Virus record (IMG/VR): IMGVR_UViG_3300044293_000344
Location: 1-28,525 of that record
Strand: one strand, 5' to 3'
From: a virus
Length of the DNA stretch: 28,525 nt
Below the pieces are notes generated by a model, which was not told where the DNA came from, made no database searches, and saw only the letters and a program-made list of their open reading frames with translations. The position numbers were made by a program, and so were the translations under genes. Positions 8,735-18,065 of this stretch are shown in pieces. Position 1 is the stretch's first letter. Every line of letters begins with the position of its first letter.

Positions 8735-11212
8735 TCAGGCGAAGAAGAAGGCGGACTCCTTCACCTGGGCGAGGTCCAGGCTACCCATAGGCGGCACCGG
8801 GGGGAGTTCAGCGAGGGCATCCTCCGCGACGAGCGGGGTGAGTTCCTCGCGGAGGCGTTCGAGAATGTTGGCGCCCGCATAGAGGTCGTGGAACGCCTCA
8901 CGCAGACACGCCTGCATCATCGGAATGTCTGCCGCGTGGGCACCGTAGCTGTCGTGGACCACGGCGAAAGCCGCCAGCCCGTTGAGCGCCCCGAGGCGCA
9001 CATACCCGCGCAGCGCCGCAGCATCCAGCGAGTGGACGAAGTTGGGGGCGATGCCTGTCCGCTGCGCGCGGGCGTCCACCTCCTCCAGCTTCACCGTGAT
9101 CTCGCCCCGGTATCTCACCTTGCCGAGCAGCACCGTGTCGATCTGCTTGCGCGTGTCCAGGCGATACCGCTGCTGGACAGTAAGCCCGTCAGGCGTCGTC
9201 CACGAGACGGGGAGACCGCCCTGGGCGACGGCGGCAGCCCACTTCTGCATCCACTCCATCGCCTGTCGGGCGGCCACCACGACTTCCCCGATAGCGGACC
9301 ACACATGGGGCGCCAGCCAAGTGACGGCGGCCATGACGCCATCCGTCTCCTGACCATCCTCCTGCACGAAGGCAAAGGGCTTGTCGGGCCGGGACGCCAG
9401 CCGCTCCATCGTGGCCTCCCGCAGATACTTGCGGGCGCTGAACTGACCCAGCCCATAGGGCAGGCACATGACGATGCGCTTCACCAGCTTCCGGTCACCG
9501 CCGACCGCCAGCCACTTGCGCGCCCAGGTTCCATCCTGCCCCTCAAGGGAAGCGATAAGGCGCAGCTTCTCCTCGGTGACGCCCCAGACCCGGGCGTAAA
9601 TGTCGGAGGGCTTGTCGCCTGGGACGAGGTTGACGGCAGCGCCGCCCACGGGATCGCGCAGCATGGCGGACAGGTGCTGGAGGCCGTTGCACGTCCCGTC
9701 CATATAGACAAGCAGCTTTGACGGGTAGCCGTAGCCGTGCGCCTTCAACCCGGCATAGTCGCGGCAGGCCGCCAGGAACTCCCACGGGGAGTCCGCCTCG
9801 GTCCACCAGGTATCTGCCCAGGGATCGGTGCCGGCCTGGATCACCCGCTCCTCGCGCTCGACCACCCAGCCTATGCGGTCGGAATAGTCGGCCTTGTCGA
9901 AGCCGAAGGTGTTGGCGACGTGGATCATCAGCCAGCCAGCTTGCTCCTCCGTCTCGATGGGGCGCGCGTCGGCCGCCTGGAGCAGCCCCCGCACCACCTT
10001 CGGCCCCTGCGGCGACAGCAGGGGGAGGTAATAGAGGCGCCCCCGGAAGTCCAACTGACAGGGCAGGTAGAAGCGGGGCTCGTCGCGGAACCGGCGAGCC
10101 TGCGCCAGGATCAGCCCCAGTTGGATCAGCTTGGAGGTCGAGGCGGTGCGCTCCTCGTGCCACAACGCTGCGGCCCGACGCCACTCCTTGCGGGCGGCCT
10201 CGTTGGTATCGATGTCCGCCGGCCTGGGCGGCATCGTGTCCAGCGGGGGCGGCACCGGGACGCCCTTGATGGGGCGGCCGGCAGCGGCGGCTTCCTCCAG
10301 GCGATCCAGCACCCAGGTGTTCATCGCATAGGCGGTGTCTTGCACAAGGTTGACCGCCTCGCACACTTGGGACAGGTCGGTGTTCGCCAATTCGGTCAGG
10401 TAGTCCTCCGTCCCGAGCGCCTTAACCAGGCACAGAGGGCGGGGCATCCGTCCCCAATAGCCGCCCCCGAAGATGCCCTTCCAGCGACGGGGCGGTATCA
10501 CCGTGGGCCAGAAGACGGGCTGGAGAAGTTCGTGTGCGGTTCGGCACCCGGCGATCCACTTGATGCACGCCTCGGAGGCGCGGACCACCTGCACCTGGGT
10601 CTTCAGGCCGGTCTTCCGCATCTCGATCTCGAAGAAGCCCGAGGTGTGCCGCAGTCGGTCGAACAGCCAGAGGCCGATGTGATACAGGTCTTCTTCCGAC
10701 CACCAGTCGGCCCTCGCGTAGCCCTCCCGGCCCACGATGGCCGACAGGGCGCGCCGCTTGTGGGCATAGTGCTTGGACTTTTCCACCATCTTCACCAGCC
10801 GCGCGATGAGGTCGGGGTCACGCTCTTGAATGAGCCGGAAGCGCACCTCGTCTTCCACCCGACGCCCGATGCCGATGCACAGGGCGTTCATCTTCGTTTC
10901 CTGGGAGACCTGAGCCAGAGCGGTTCGGATGGTGATGTAGGCGACCACCTCGGGGGGGAGCAGGGCGAGATAGCCGAGCGCCTTGTGATGGCGACCGGCC
11001 TTCCCCTCCTTCACCGCATCCAGCGCCTCGCGGATCGCCCGAGCCAGCGGATCGACGCACGCCTGGAGCATCCGGCTGCCGTAGCCAGTCTCATCCTCCC
11101 TCCCCGAGGCCACGGCGGCAGCCACCTGGGCGCGATAGCGGGAGGCTGATGCACCGAACATCTCCACCTCCAGCGCCTTCTGGCGCTCGATCTGCTCCGT
11201 AGTGATCGGCAT
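8735..11212 (-). CDS. single-subunit phage RNA polymerase (T7 gp1-like)
   Basis: 825 aa (T7 is 883). Catalytic motifs are intact: YMDGTCNGLQHLSAMLRD with D505, VKRIVMCLPYG with K578 and Y586, VVHDSYG with H753 and D754, and IAPNFVHSLDAAALR. The C-terminus ends FFFA, like the T7 FAFA. The specificity loop, around residues 684-702 (KQIDTVLLGKVRYR), keeps the LLG core but lacks the T7 promoter-contact residues: Q690, D692 and R702 stand where T7 has R746, N748 and Q758. A promoter unlike that of T7 is therefore expected. ATG 11212 has CCAAGGAGAACCCGT upstream. Confidence 0.97.
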   Translation of the reverse strand: MPITTEQIERQKALEVEMFGASASRYRAQVAAAVASGREDETGYGSRMLQACVDPLARAIREALDAVKEGKAGRHHKALGYLALLPPEVVAYITIRTALAQVSQETKMNALCIGIGRRVEDEVRFRLIQERDPDLIARLVKMVEKSKHYAHKRRALSAIVGREGYARADWWSEEDLYHIGLWLFDRLRHTSGFFEIEMRKTGLKTQVQVVRASEACIKWIAGCRTAHELLQPVFWPTVIPPRRWKGIFGGGYWGRMPRPLCLVKALGTEDYLTELANTDLSQVCEAVNLVQDTAYAMNTWVLDRLEEAAAAGRPIKGVPVPPPLDTMPPRPADIDTNEAARKEWRRAAALWHEERTASTSKLIQLGLILAQARRFRDEPRFYLPCQLDFRGRLYYLPLLSPQGPKVVRGLLQAADARPIETEEQAGWLMIHVANTFGFDKADYSDRIGWVVEREERVIQAGTDPWADTWWTEADSPWEFLAACRDYAGLKAHGYGYPSKLLVYMDGTCNGLQHLSAMLRDPVGGAAVNLVPGDKPSDIYARVWGVTEEKLRLIASLEGQDGTWARKWLAVGGDRKLVKRIVMCLPYGLGQFSARKYLREATMERLASRPDKPFAFVQEDGQETDGVMAAVTWLAPHVWSAIGEVVVAARQAMEWMQKWAAAVAQGGLPVSWTTPDGLTVQQRYRLDTRKQIDTVLLGKVRYRGEITVKLEEVDARAQRTGIAPNFVHSLDAAALRGYVRLGALNGLAAFAVVHDSYGAHAADIPMMQACLREAFHDLYAGANILERLREELTPLVAEDALAELPPVPPMGSLDLAQVKESAFFFA

Positions 11213-11250
11213 ACGGGTTCTCCTTGGGGGGTAAGCCTTCGGCGGCGCCT

Positions 11251-11273
11251 TGAGGGAAGCGTGGGGAAAACCC
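11251..11273. promoter_or_regulatory. 23-bp conserved regulatory element, copy upstream of RNA polymerase
   Basis: TGAGGGAAGCGTGGGGAAAA then CCC on the plus strand, 22/23 identical to 8667-8689. It lies 39 bases before the polymerase start. It is a candidate control point for polymerase expression, possibly a repressor site. Confidence 0.55.
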
Positions 11274-11467
11274 TCCCCATCCCCACGCTAGACCGTTCAC
11301 CCCCTAAAGGGTGTGGTGCGAACAGCGGGAGGGATGCCCCGAAAGTTGTGGCAGGGATGCCGCTTTGTGGCGCCGCCACAGAAATCCGATGCGGGGGAGG
11401 GGGAGGTCGGACCTAGGGAATCCCTAGGTTTTTCCCTAGGCGGCCCAGCTACTTAGGGGGCGGTCCC

Positions 11468-11526
11468 CTCTAGGGTTGCGGTAGACTGCGGATTTGCAGT
11501 CCGGGCAGCGGCCGGGAGCCCTAGAG
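11468..11526. other. cruciform with tRNA-Cys anticodon core (candidate attP core)
   Basis: An outer 8-bp inverted repeat (CTCTAGGG, 11468-11475; CCCTAGAG, 11519-11526) encloses GACTGC-GGATTT-GCAGTC (11484-11501). The 13 bases GGATTTGCAGTCC at 11490-11502 are identical to the anticodon region of the tRNA-Cys at 11652-11664. On the minus strand CGGA-CTGCAAA-TCCG would form a tRNA-Cys anticodon stem-loop, but no other tRNA arms are present. Confidence 0.5.
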
Positions 11527-11540
11527 TTTCCAGGGGTTCG

Positions 11541-11592
11541 CCGCTTGTGGCAGCCACATGTCACATGATGCGACACGCGGTGCCACAAGCGG
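11541..11592. repeat. 12-bp perfect inverted repeat
   Basis: CCGCTTGTGGCA at 11541-11552 is repeated inverted at 11581-11592 with a 28-base spacer. A further copy differing in one end base is at 17811-17822, in the putative genome-end block. Confidence 0.6.
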
Positions 11593-11617
11593 GGAGCCTC
11601 GGGTTGTCAGCGGATTG

Positions 11618-11691
11618 TGGAGGCGCCGCCCGGAGTCGAACCGGGCTCGCAGGATTTGCAGTCCTGAGCATAACCGATCTGCCACGGCGCC
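11618..11691 (-). tRNA. tRNA-Cys (GCA)
   Basis: A complete 74-base cloverleaf. The acceptor is GGCGCCG/CGGCGCC, the D arm GCA/TGC with GGTTA, the anticodon arm CAGGA-CTGCAAA-TCCTG with anticodon GCA, a short variable loop, T arm CCCGG-TTCGACT-CCGGG, discriminator T, and an encoded CCA. It has the same segment lengths as E. coli tRNA-Cys. It lies 57 bases downstream of the integrase stop. It is the only tRNA I find, and its place beside the integrase suggests a link with the attachment site. Confidence 0.93.
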
Positions 11692-12822: not shown

Positions 12823-13185
12823 TCAACCTCCCTTGCTAACGTGCTTGAGCGCGCGGGTCACCACGCCGCGCCCCTTGGGGGTCAGGCGCACCAGCTTCTG
12901 GCGGCGGTCCAACGGGTTCTCCCAGGACTCCACCAGCGCCAGCCCATCGATCATCTGCTGCTGGCCTCCGTTCCGGTAACCAGTCGAAGACAGCATCCCG
13001 ATGTTGCGGGACATGGCGCTGGCCCCGATGCCGAGCGACCGCTGGAGGTCCGCCATGGGCACTTCGCCCCCCTCCGCGATGAGCAGGAGGGTGAGGAGGG
13101 TTTGCACCTCCGAATCCTTGCCCATGCCGTCGCGGAGAGAGGCGAGAGCGCCCCTCAGACTGGAGGCATCTGGGATGCCAGGCAT
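12823..13185 (-). CDS. MarR-like winged-helix regulator
   Basis: The frame opens at 13257, but ATG 13185 is chosen because GAAAGGAACGGAACA precedes it. The 120-aa protein has the MarR layout: a long helix (VQTLLTLLLIAEGGEVPMA), helix-turn-helix DLQRSLGIGASAMSRNIGML, and a wing ENPLDRRQKLVRLTPKG. MarR proteins are dimeric repressors. Co-transcription with the integrase and a palindrome at its own promoter suggest a lysogeny regulator. No ligand pocket can be judged. The exact family assignment is by pattern only. Confidence 0.75.
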   Translation of the reverse strand: MPGIPDASSLRGALASLRDGMGKDSEVQTLLTLLLIAEGGEVPMADLQRSLGIGASAMSRNIGMLSSTGYRNGGQQQMIDGLALVESWENPLDRRQKLVRLTPKGRGVVTRALKHVSKGG

Positions 13186-13260
13186 TGTTCCGTTCCTTTC
13201 GCGTTGCGGGGAGGCGCCCAGGTCAGGACCGCCTCCACCCCGAGCCACCACGCCCACAGC

Positions 13261-16317: not shown

Positions 16318-17019
16318 TTAGTGGCGCGGGTAGGCCACCTCGGCGACGTCACGGGACCAGCAGGCCCGGCAGGCGCCGCACACGCCGCCCTGTAGGTAAG
16401 CAGGGCACACATGCGCGCCGGCCCGAGGCGCGGCCTTGTGATAGACGCTGGAAGTCTGGGCATGGCGCGCCGAGGGCGCCCCGTCAATCTTCGTGGCCGA
16501 CACCCGCACCGTCAGGTTTTCGGGGATGACATGGCCGGCGGCTTCGAAGGCGGCGAGGACGCCGACCTCACGGGTGGGCAGCCAATGGCGCAATTCGGGC
16601 GTGCTGCGAGCGACGTCACAGATGGCGACCAGATGCGCCACAGATTGCAGGTCACCGCTATCGTGCCAGCGGTGCCAGCCCGGCGAAGTGACGGCGGCGG
16701 CAGGCTTGCCAGTGTCCAGCCCGTGGGCGTGGCGCAGCATCTTGACCATCGCCGGAACCCATCGCGGATTGTCGATGGCGGCGAGGCGCTTGCCTTGCGC
16801 GGCGGCGACGCTCGGGAAAGTGTAATTCCCCTTGAGGGCGTAACAATCGCTGCAAACCGTGTCGGGCACATTGTGCAGCTTGGCGCCGACATGGCAGGCG
16901 GCGGCGGGGATGCCGTAGGCGGTGCCCGGCATCTTGGACGGGTAGCCGAGGCTACCGGCGATGTCGGCGGCGGCCTTGACGGTGGCGATGGGCGCGAAGC
17001 CCGTATCATCGAAGGGCAT
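16318..17019 (-). CDS. Gp88-like cysteine-rich phage protein
   Basis: 233 aa, start ATG 17019. It carries KMPGTAYGIPAAACHVGAKL, then TVCSDCYALKGNYTFPSV (CxxC), a central HRWHDSGDLQSVAHL, and a C-terminal HVCPAYLQGGVCGACRACW with four more cysteines. This is the layout of the phage Gp88 family as I know it; cysteine spacing suggests a bound metal or Fe-S cluster. The biochemical role is unknown. As the first gene after the putative left genome end it would be among the earliest expressed, as host-takeover genes are in T7. The ribosome site is weak (CTGGAGCCTACCCC). Confidence 0.65.
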   Translation of the reverse strand: MPFDDTGFAPIATVKAAADIAGSLGYPSKMPGTAYGIPAAACHVGAKLHNVPDTVCSDCYALKGNYTFPSVAAAQGKRLAAIDNPRWVPAMVKMLRHAHGLDTGKPAAAVTSPGWHRWHDSGDLQSVAHLVAICDVARSTPELRHWLPTREVGVLAAFEAAGHVIPENLTVRVSATKIDGAPSARHAQTSSVYHKAAPRAGAHVCPAYLQGGVCGACRACWSRDVAEVAYPRH

Positions 17020-17044
17020 GGGGTAGGCTCCAGCGTGGTAGGTG

Positions 17045-17062
17045 GCGCGCTTGCGATGCGCG
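17045..17062 (-). promoter_or_regulatory. early leader hairpin with TCGCAAG loop, copy 3
   Basis: CGCGCATCGCAAGCGCGC on the minus strand, identical to 16205-16222, followed by CACCTACCACGCTGGAG before the Gp88-like gene. Confidence 0.6.
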
Positions 17063-17292
17063 ACCGGGCGGCCGGATGGGCGGACGATGGGATGGATTGC
17101 TTATGGCGGGCCTGCGCTATTGCGCCGCTTCCGCCCGGTTGCGTGGTGTTCCGCCGTTGCGGACCGTGCGGTGGCGACCAGCCAGCGCGACACCAGGGGA
17201 TCGTCCCCGCCCTCCACCGGAGGGCCTCCCCGTCCGACCATCTGGCCGTCCGGTGCCCAACCCTTAGCGCCGGGCAAAAACGCCGTAAAGGG

Positions 17293-17340
17293 AAAAATGC
17301 AGGAAAACAAAAAAAAAGTGCATTTTTGGCGGTTTCCTGC
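17293..17340. other. AT-rich element with two competing inverted repeats
   Basis: AAAAATGCA (17293-17301) pairs with TGCATTTTT (17319-17327), enclosing a 9-A run (17309-17317). Overlapping it, GCAGGAAA (17299-17306) pairs with TTTCCTGC (17333-17340). The two structures cannot form together. It is a conspicuous AT-rich patch in this GC-rich window, so an origin, bidirectional terminator or early promoter region is possible. Confidence 0.5.
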
Positions 17341-17436
17341 GGGTTTCCGGGCGGCATCGGGAGGGGCGATCCTCGCGTCTACAATGCTCGCGCGATGCGG
17401 GCGCGGGATCATGGTCTGTCGCGGGGCGCGATCCGG

Positions 17437-17641
17437 GCCGCCCTCGGGCCGCCCCCAGGCCGCCCCCAGGCCGCCCTCGGGATCGCCCCCAGGCCGCCCT
17501 CGGGATCGCCCCCAGGCCGCCCTCGGGATCGCCCCCAGGCCGCCCCCAGGCCGCCCCCAGGCCGCCCTCGGGATCGCCCTCGGGATCGCCCCCAGGCCGC
17601 CCTCGGGATCGCCCCCAGGCCGCCCTCGGGATCGCCCCCAG
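17437..17641. repeat. tandem array of 18 units of 11-12 bp
   Basis: The array is built from A = GCCGCCCTCGG, B = GCCGCCCCCAG, C = GATCGCCCCCAG and D = GATCGCCCTCGG in the order A B B A C A C A C B B A D C A C A C. The A-C pair forms a 23-bp higher-order unit, so the reading frame changes each repeat and coding is implausible. Related degenerate units continue at about 17694-17750. Confidence 0.85.
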
Positions 17642-17693
17642 GCCGAAAAGGGACAGATGCTGCCGGCCGCCCGCCGCAGCATCGGGCCGCCCA

Positions 17694-17750
17694 TGGGATC
17701 GCCCCCGGGCCGCCGGCCGGATCGCCCCCGGGATCGCCCCTGGCCCCCCG
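17694..17750. repeat. degenerate extension of the tandem array
   Basis: Diverged copies of the GATCGCCCCC and GGGCCGCC units continue after a 52-base interruption that includes GAAAAGGGACAGATGC. Confidence 0.5.
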
Positions 17751-18019
17751 ACCTGGCCCCCTTGCGGATGCACAATCCGCCGCAAGCCTAGGTTTTCCGC
17801 CGCTTTCCGCCCGCTTGTGGCGCCATCGTGTGGCACGGGGGCCTCCGGTAGGACGCCAAGAGGGCCGCCGGCCGGCTCCCCTACGGGGGGAGTGCGGCGA
17901 GGCGACCCTATCGATGCCCTCCTCAGACATGGACAACAAACATCCAGACCCCTTTAGGGCACCATCAGACACCCCTCCAGAACCGCCTAGGATGCCCGCT
18001 GGAGCCCCTCTGGAGCCCT

Positions 18020-18065
18020 CCCAGCTACCCCAGTAGCGGGGAAGACCGAAGGCCCCTGTGCGGGC
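18020..18065. repeat. 46-bp element flanking the large terminase, copy A
   Basis: Ungapped match at 35 of 46 positions to 20055-20100. Identity is concentrated in blocks CCCAGCTA, AGTAGC, AAG, AGGCCCCT and TGCGGGC at constant spacing, which looks like a protein-binding site rather than drifted coding sequence. This copy lies about 155 bases beyond the terminase stop. Confidence 0.65.

Follow-up and report, generated by a model that had tools for sequence, protein, structure and literature searches.

The stretch of DNA analyzed here (the window) is a 28.5-kb fragment of a virus record with 68% G+C, in which all recognizable genes are carried on the minus strand. These include a T7-type RNA polymerase, a DNA polymerase A, a T7-type primase-helicase, and a T7-type terminase, with an SSB-like protein and an internal virion protein as further products. 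A plus-strand open reading frame (16411-18036, 541 amino acids) runs opposite to them without a family match and may be real or an artefact of high G+C content. Read along the minus strand, a winged-helix regulator is followed by a tyrosine integrase, a tRNA-Cys gene, a strong hairpin, an isolated copy of the tRNA-Cys anticodon stem-loop (the core), and the RNA polymerase (Table 1). The regulator occupies the position of the MarR-type regulator in related temperate phages, where the neighborhood is the same, and a regulator and integrase just upstream of a T7-type RNA polymerase are also found in RHEph01, LUZ100, HTVC119P, and others; the gene order of the window is that of temperate T7-like phages, i.e., integrase-bearing Autographiviridae. 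Alignment with relatives places the catalytic residues R204, K233, H304, R307, H330, and Y339 in the integrase, which is intact as judged from its sequence. As integrase and RNA polymerase both still flank the core, the window represents the unintegrated form, in which state it is best explained as part of the genome of a temperate T7-like (Autographiviridae-type) phage. Its integrase is only ~31% identical to that of the nearest mapped relative, and the closest integrases in our set, at 27 to 31% identity, belong mainly to tRNA-carrying, short-core phages. Close relatives of the integrase and RNA polymerase were sought among viral contigs and none was found, and named phages show no DNA similarity to the window.

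Table 1. Features of the window around the predicted attachment site
Feature	Position	Strand	Evidence
T7-type single-subunit RNA polymerase, on the other side of attP	8735..11212	-	Pfam PF00940, E 1.8e-93
CCCTAG-word cluster, candidate arm-type integrase sites	11412..11440	.	Word distribution
Left arm CTCTAGGG of core-enclosing inverted repeat, candidate arm-type site	11469..11476	.	Sequence
Predicted attP core, isolated tRNA-Cys anticodon stem-loop CGGACTGCAAATCCG	11489..11503	-	Exact repeat, shuffles, junctions of relatives
Predicted strand-exchange region, 7-base anticodon loop CTGCAAA	11493..11499	-	Inference
Right arm CCCTAGAG of core-enclosing inverted repeat	11519..11526	.	Sequence
Strong hairpin between tRNA-Cys and attP core	~11530..11603	.	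Inverted repeat of 23 nt, 83%; DNA fold z -4.83
Complete tRNA-Cys(GCA), predicted replacement of the host gene	11618..11691 (ARAGORN/Rfam start 11618/11621)	-	ARAGORN; Rfam RF00005, 56.6 bits
Tyrosine integrase, 357 aa	11748..12821	-	Pfam PF00589, E 1.2e-19
Winged-helix transcription regulator	12823..13257	-	Pfam PF13463, E 4e-5; phrog_9665 transcriptional regulator

The original prediction described a complete tRNA-Cys by the integrase, and ARAGORN and Rfam agree on this assignment. The gene encodes its terminal TCCA and sits between the integrase and the RNA polymerase; no sigma-70-like promoter was found at it. The recurrence of its anticodon core is likewise confirmed, as the 13-bp sequence GGATTTGCAGTCC is repeated exactly at 11490-11502, within the predicted attP core, and at 11652-11664, within the phage's own tRNA-Cys, 162 positions apart. 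None of 2,000 dinucleotide shuffles of 11213-11617 reached a match of 13 bp (the maximum was 12, with at least 12 in 6 shuffles), and the repeat is therefore not attributable to chance; the expected count of the 13-mer in the 535-bp gap between integrase and RNA polymerase is 8e-6. Both copies are centered on the GCA anticodon, and the phage tRNA is of the isotype Cys(GCA). With its flanks, the isolated copy reads CGGA-CTGCAAA-TCCG on the minus strand (11503-11489), exactly as predicted, and the expectation that these flanks need not match the phage tRNA also holds, with the copies diverging beyond 13 bp (CAGGA/TCCTG in the phage tRNA versus CCGGA/TCCGC at the isolated core).

The core was also said to stand without other tRNA arms, and indeed ARAGORN detects no tRNA there, and D-arm, T-arm, and acceptor sequences are absent beside it, leaving the anticodon arm alone. 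The window does not present the tRNA half that attP carries in canonical tRNA-reconstituting integration, and simulated integration into a Xanthobacter-type tRNA-Cys gave no tRNA at either junction. The location of the core between integrase and RNA polymerase is where the mapped junctions of relatives fall. The loop CTGCAAA is the predicted strand-exchange region because the loop is common to the cores of relatives using one anticodon. The core shares 15 to 17 bp with 54 complete tRNA-Cys genes, all of which lie on other viral contigs. A scan of viral contigs with the 15-mer returned mostly ordinary tRNA-Cys genes.

Of the cruciform in which the core had been placed, the enclosing inverted repeat (CTCTAGGG...CCCTAGAG) is present, but a cruciform role was dropped because the region folds no better than its shuffles (z -0.98); it is the neighboring hairpin, between core and tRNA-Cys, that folds strongly. 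This hairpin is without a T tract and is a candidate terminator, regulator, or integrase site. TTGTGGC/GCCACAA words in the gap, at 11346, 11365, 11545, and 11582, are possible operator or integrase sites. Five of the seven CCCTAG/CTAGGG words of the window fall in the integrase-RNA polymerase gap around the core, a clustering as for arm-type integrase sites, and these words are candidates for integrase binding.

Integrated relatives place this anatomy into context. Prophages were found by RNA polymerase alignment against bacterial genomes. As attP lies between integrase and RNA polymerase, the integrated copy has the RNA polymerase at one end and the integrase at the other; the integrase end was taken 28 to 48 kb downstream of the RNA polymerase, and junctions were recognized as short repeats whose joined host flanks yield a whole tRNA. 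Eleven integrated T7-like prophages interrupt a host tRNA-Leu at its anticodon loop, with a core of 8 to 15 bp. They comprise prophages of Litchfieldella (13 bp, Leu-UAG), a Rhizobiales genome (9 bp, Leu-UAA), Reyranella (11 bp, Leu-UAA), Rhizobium anhuiense (12 bp, Leu-UAG), a Hyphomicrobiales MAG (8 bp, Leu-UAA), Rhodopseudomonas palustris (11 bp, Leu-UAA), Xanthobacter YC-JY1 (11 bp, Leu-UAA), a second Rhizobiales genome (11 bp, Leu-UAA), and a Rhizobiaceae MAG (10 bp, Leu-UAG), together with a tenth (15 bp, Leu-CAA) and an eleventh (13 bp, Leu-UAG). In all nine tested (Litchfieldella to the Rhizobiaceae MAG), no tRNA spans the core at either junction or in attP, and every one of these prophages has a complete tRNA with the anticodon of the broken host gene, to which it is 65 to 84% identical; the other two have a same-anticodon tRNA beside the integrase. 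Independent 5'-half and 3'-half patterns detected no intact host copy of the split anticodon in these nine genomes, which include a closed chromosome; both patterns could miss tRNAs whose D- or T-loop is unusual. On the closed chromosome of Xanthobacter sp. YC-JY1 (L184/L026, G006:C1), no intact tRNA-Leu(UAA) other than that of the prophage was detected, and an essential tRNA therefore appears to be virus-encoded.

The same prophage set includes ordinary reconstituting members at Leu, Lys, Phe, Ser, and Cys tRNAs. Two Xanthobacter prophages (L186/L033 and L187/L073) cross over in the anticodon loop of tRNA-Cys, with the tRNA rebuilt, and it follows that this integrase group does use tRNA-Cys anticodon loops as attB. 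The window integrase had no match in 385 alphaproteobacterial genomes at E 1e-35. RNA polymerase searches of ~1,180 genomes (two orders and one class) added two further Leu lysogens and gave no short-core Cys lysogen. The original prediction had pointed to a tRNA-Cys split by a prophage with this integrase as the place to look, and neither this arrangement nor any other lysogen of the window phage was found in the genomes searched.

A survey of integrase-bearing T7-like phages and contigs recovered 54 nearby tRNAs, only 27 of which have an anticodon-centered repeat of at least 9 bp downstream of the integrase, mostly isolated. The Cys cases other than the window are L386, in which the layout of integrase, tRNA-Cys, and core is the window's own, and L167/L169. 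Another contig (L243), with an RNA polymerase adjoining tRNA-Cys, was rejected, being without an integrase. Isolated tRNA-Cys anticodon 15-mers also lie ~20 to 110 bp from integrase genes at L225, L228, L233, L253, L281, and L284, which have no T7-type RNA polymerase in the stretch examined; from their position near such integrases, the anticodon loop of tRNA-Cys seems to be a common site of attachment.

With the L169 integrase as a lead, we collected 67 contigs of the marine HTVC019P-type pelagiphage lineage, in which attP occurs at the same place in two forms, either a bare 13-bp core (GGATTGCAAATCC) or that core extended by the entire 5' half of tRNA-Cys. Where a contig offers sufficient sequence, a complete tRNA-Cys is present in 13/13 with a bare core versus 0/21 with the half-tRNA form (Fisher 1e-9, a value that treats related contigs as independent and is uncorrected for kinship). 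On the integrase tree, the attP state changes three to four times, two of these changes being forced by well-supported branches. HTVC019P itself combines a bare core with a full tRNA-Cys. The half-tRNA attP is found in HTVC021P, HTVC022P, HTVC201P, Jormungand, HTVC121P, and HTVC304P; no tRNA-Cys occurs in the fetched stretch of these phages, Jormungand excepted, for which the stretch ends shortly after attP and absence is uninformative. HTVC022P is reported to integrate at the host tRNA-Cys (PMC12753301).

Several further observations concern these pelagiphages. The complete tRNA-Cys of HTVC019P (L529, KC465901.1; 8946-9019) lies between lysozyme and primase and is unannotated in the record. 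At the attP sites of L469-L498 and L514-L524, tRNA-Cys is rebuilt from a phage-borne 5' half (acceptor strand and D arm) and not from the usual 3' half, and the rebuilt tRNA-Cys would consequently be transcribed from phage-side DNA. Pelagiphage replacement tRNAs (L463, L503, L512, and L518) often deviate from the core in the anticodon stem (AGA/TCT in place of GGA/TCC), a change that may protect them from the phage's own integrase; the window tRNA-Cys retains the 13-bp core and differs from it only further out.

Given its bare-core attP, the carried tRNA, the empty simulated junctions, the core match, and the nearest integrases, we adopt the reading that the window phage very probably undergoes tRNA-dependent lysogeny at host tRNA-Cys, with the phage tRNA-Cys replacing the disrupted gene. 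The isolated anticodon stem-loop between integrase and RNA polymerase would serve as attP, which the integrase would recombine with the identical sequence in the anticodon loop of the host tRNA-Cys. The host gene would be split and each half joined to unrelated phage DNA, so that no functional tRNA-Cys would remain at either junction. The phage tRNA-Cys would enter the chromosome with the prophage and supply the essential function, and lysogeny would therefore depend on it. Such a crossover, breaking the host tRNA and calling on the phage copy, is what the original prediction envisaged, and the 11 mapped relatives and the pelagiphage comparison argue for it. The anatomy of the window, the junctions in the tRNA-Leu relatives, and the link between short Cys attP and full tRNA-Cys in a related lineage are the observed basis, from which we infer the attB in the host of the window phage, that the lysogen expresses the tRNA, and that it needs this tRNA to survive.

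Phage tRNAs have established lytic roles in general (named in PMC10865867), and the tRNA-Cys could also be expressed during lytic growth; it could thus be speculated that it supplements translation or replaces a tRNA cut by host defence, independent of integration. This is very unlikely, as the lone tRNA agrees in anticodon with the attachment core, this agreement recurs in 11/11 mapped prophages, and sister phages with a half-tRNA attP manage without tRNA-Cys. Equally, a tRNA-Cys by the integrase might be a relic of imprecise excision and the core a leftover or plain attP, with no joint function, a reading offered for the tRNA-Leu beside the LUZ100 integrase, where the same idea is cited for pelagiphages (PMC10134795). 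We consider this highly improbable, since the junctions of mapped lysogens do lie at the core, no intact tRNA copy other than that of the phage was detected in them, and tRNA presence follows attP type (13/13 versus 0/21). The phage tRNAs are, moreover, only 65 to 84% identical to the gene that they replace and are therefore not fresh copies of it.

Ordinary integration, with the host tRNA-Cys made whole again by attP at one junction and the phage tRNA present only incidentally, is known in relatives, namely, in the two tRNA-Cys prophages of Xanthobacter and in pelagiphages with a half-tRNA attP, but the bare window core and the simulated junctions without a tRNA make it extremely unlikely here. 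The same 13 bp at both places would also suit an attP within the phage tRNA-Cys itself, in its anticodon loop, the isolated core then being a decoy, a hairpin, or a chance copy. Every mapped relative has the isolated core as its junction and the phage tRNA whole, and a 13-bp copy is beyond chance, which renders this reading extremely improbable.

The relatives reached from the window indicate that tRNA-dependent lysogeny is frequent among temperate T7-like phages, which bears on the question of its prevalence outside actinophages. The tRNAs used are Leu(UAA), Leu(UAG), Leu(CAA), and very probably Cys, and within one abundant group of pelagiphages tRNA replacement alternates with ordinary reconstitution. 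This accounts for the lone tRNA beside the integrase in many such phages, earlier taken as a relic. Loss of the tRNA is predicted to yield clear-plaque phages, and an essential tRNA of the lysogen is predicted to become virus-encoded. With related phages differing in the tRNA/attP module, how the switch evolved can be tested directly. More broadly, it is a tentative suggestion, falling just short of probable, that T7-like phages across Proteobacteria and pelagiphages commonly use tRNA-dependent lysogeny, that lineages switch repeatedly between rebuilding and replacing, and that the anticodon stem of the replacement is selected away from the core and ceases to be a target of the phage's own integrase.

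The original prediction regarded a full replacement tRNA with a minimal core as a different strategy; it is in fact already known, since tRNA replacement is described in PMC10865867, PMC8631192, and PMC11476347. Guerrero-Bustamante and Hatfull (2024) defined tRNA-dependent lysogeny experimentally in actinophages at Lys, Ile2, and Leu tRNAs and left its prevalence beyond actinophages as an open question (PMC10865867). For T7-like Rhizobium phages, a 12-bp core in tRNA-Leu was described in 2021, with the phage tRNA proposed as a replacement (PMC8631192); the R. anhuiense prophage mapped here is among those compared there. A Sinorhizobium survey reports similar replacement (PMC11476347). To our knowledge, earlier work had not covered the Cys isotype, as many mapped T7-like lysogens, or repeated switching among pelagiphages, the main pelagiphage integration-site paper (Zhao 2019) lying outside this comparison.

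Like the window phage, the actinobacteriophages Fionnbharth, LeBron, Gaia, and Mollymur (PMC10865867) have a tyrosine integrase and a full phage tRNA; their 8- to 17-bp core in a host tRNA of the same isotype, with no tRNA rebuilt at attL or attR, corresponds to what is predicted for the window phage. They are unrelated to it, use Lys, Ile2, and Leu in place of Cys, and have experimental proof where the window phage has comparative evidence only. The vTRX32-1-like Rhizobium prophages (PMC8631192) resemble it in being T7-like, with a core in host tRNA-Leu and a full phage tRNA, but the tRNA is Leu(UAG) and the integrase ~27% identical. HTVC019P-type pelagiphages (Pelagivirus) share with the window a T7-like genome and an attP with the tRNA-Cys anticodon core between integrase and RNA polymerase; they differ in their distant integrases, low-GC hosts, the rebuilding of tRNA by several members, and a tRNA-Cys downstream of the RNA polymerase, whereas that of the window is beside the integrase. 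The T7-like Xanthobacter prophages, finally, restore their tRNA from a phage-borne 3' half, unlike the window phage, and cross over in the tRNA-Cys anticodon loop, as is proposed for it.
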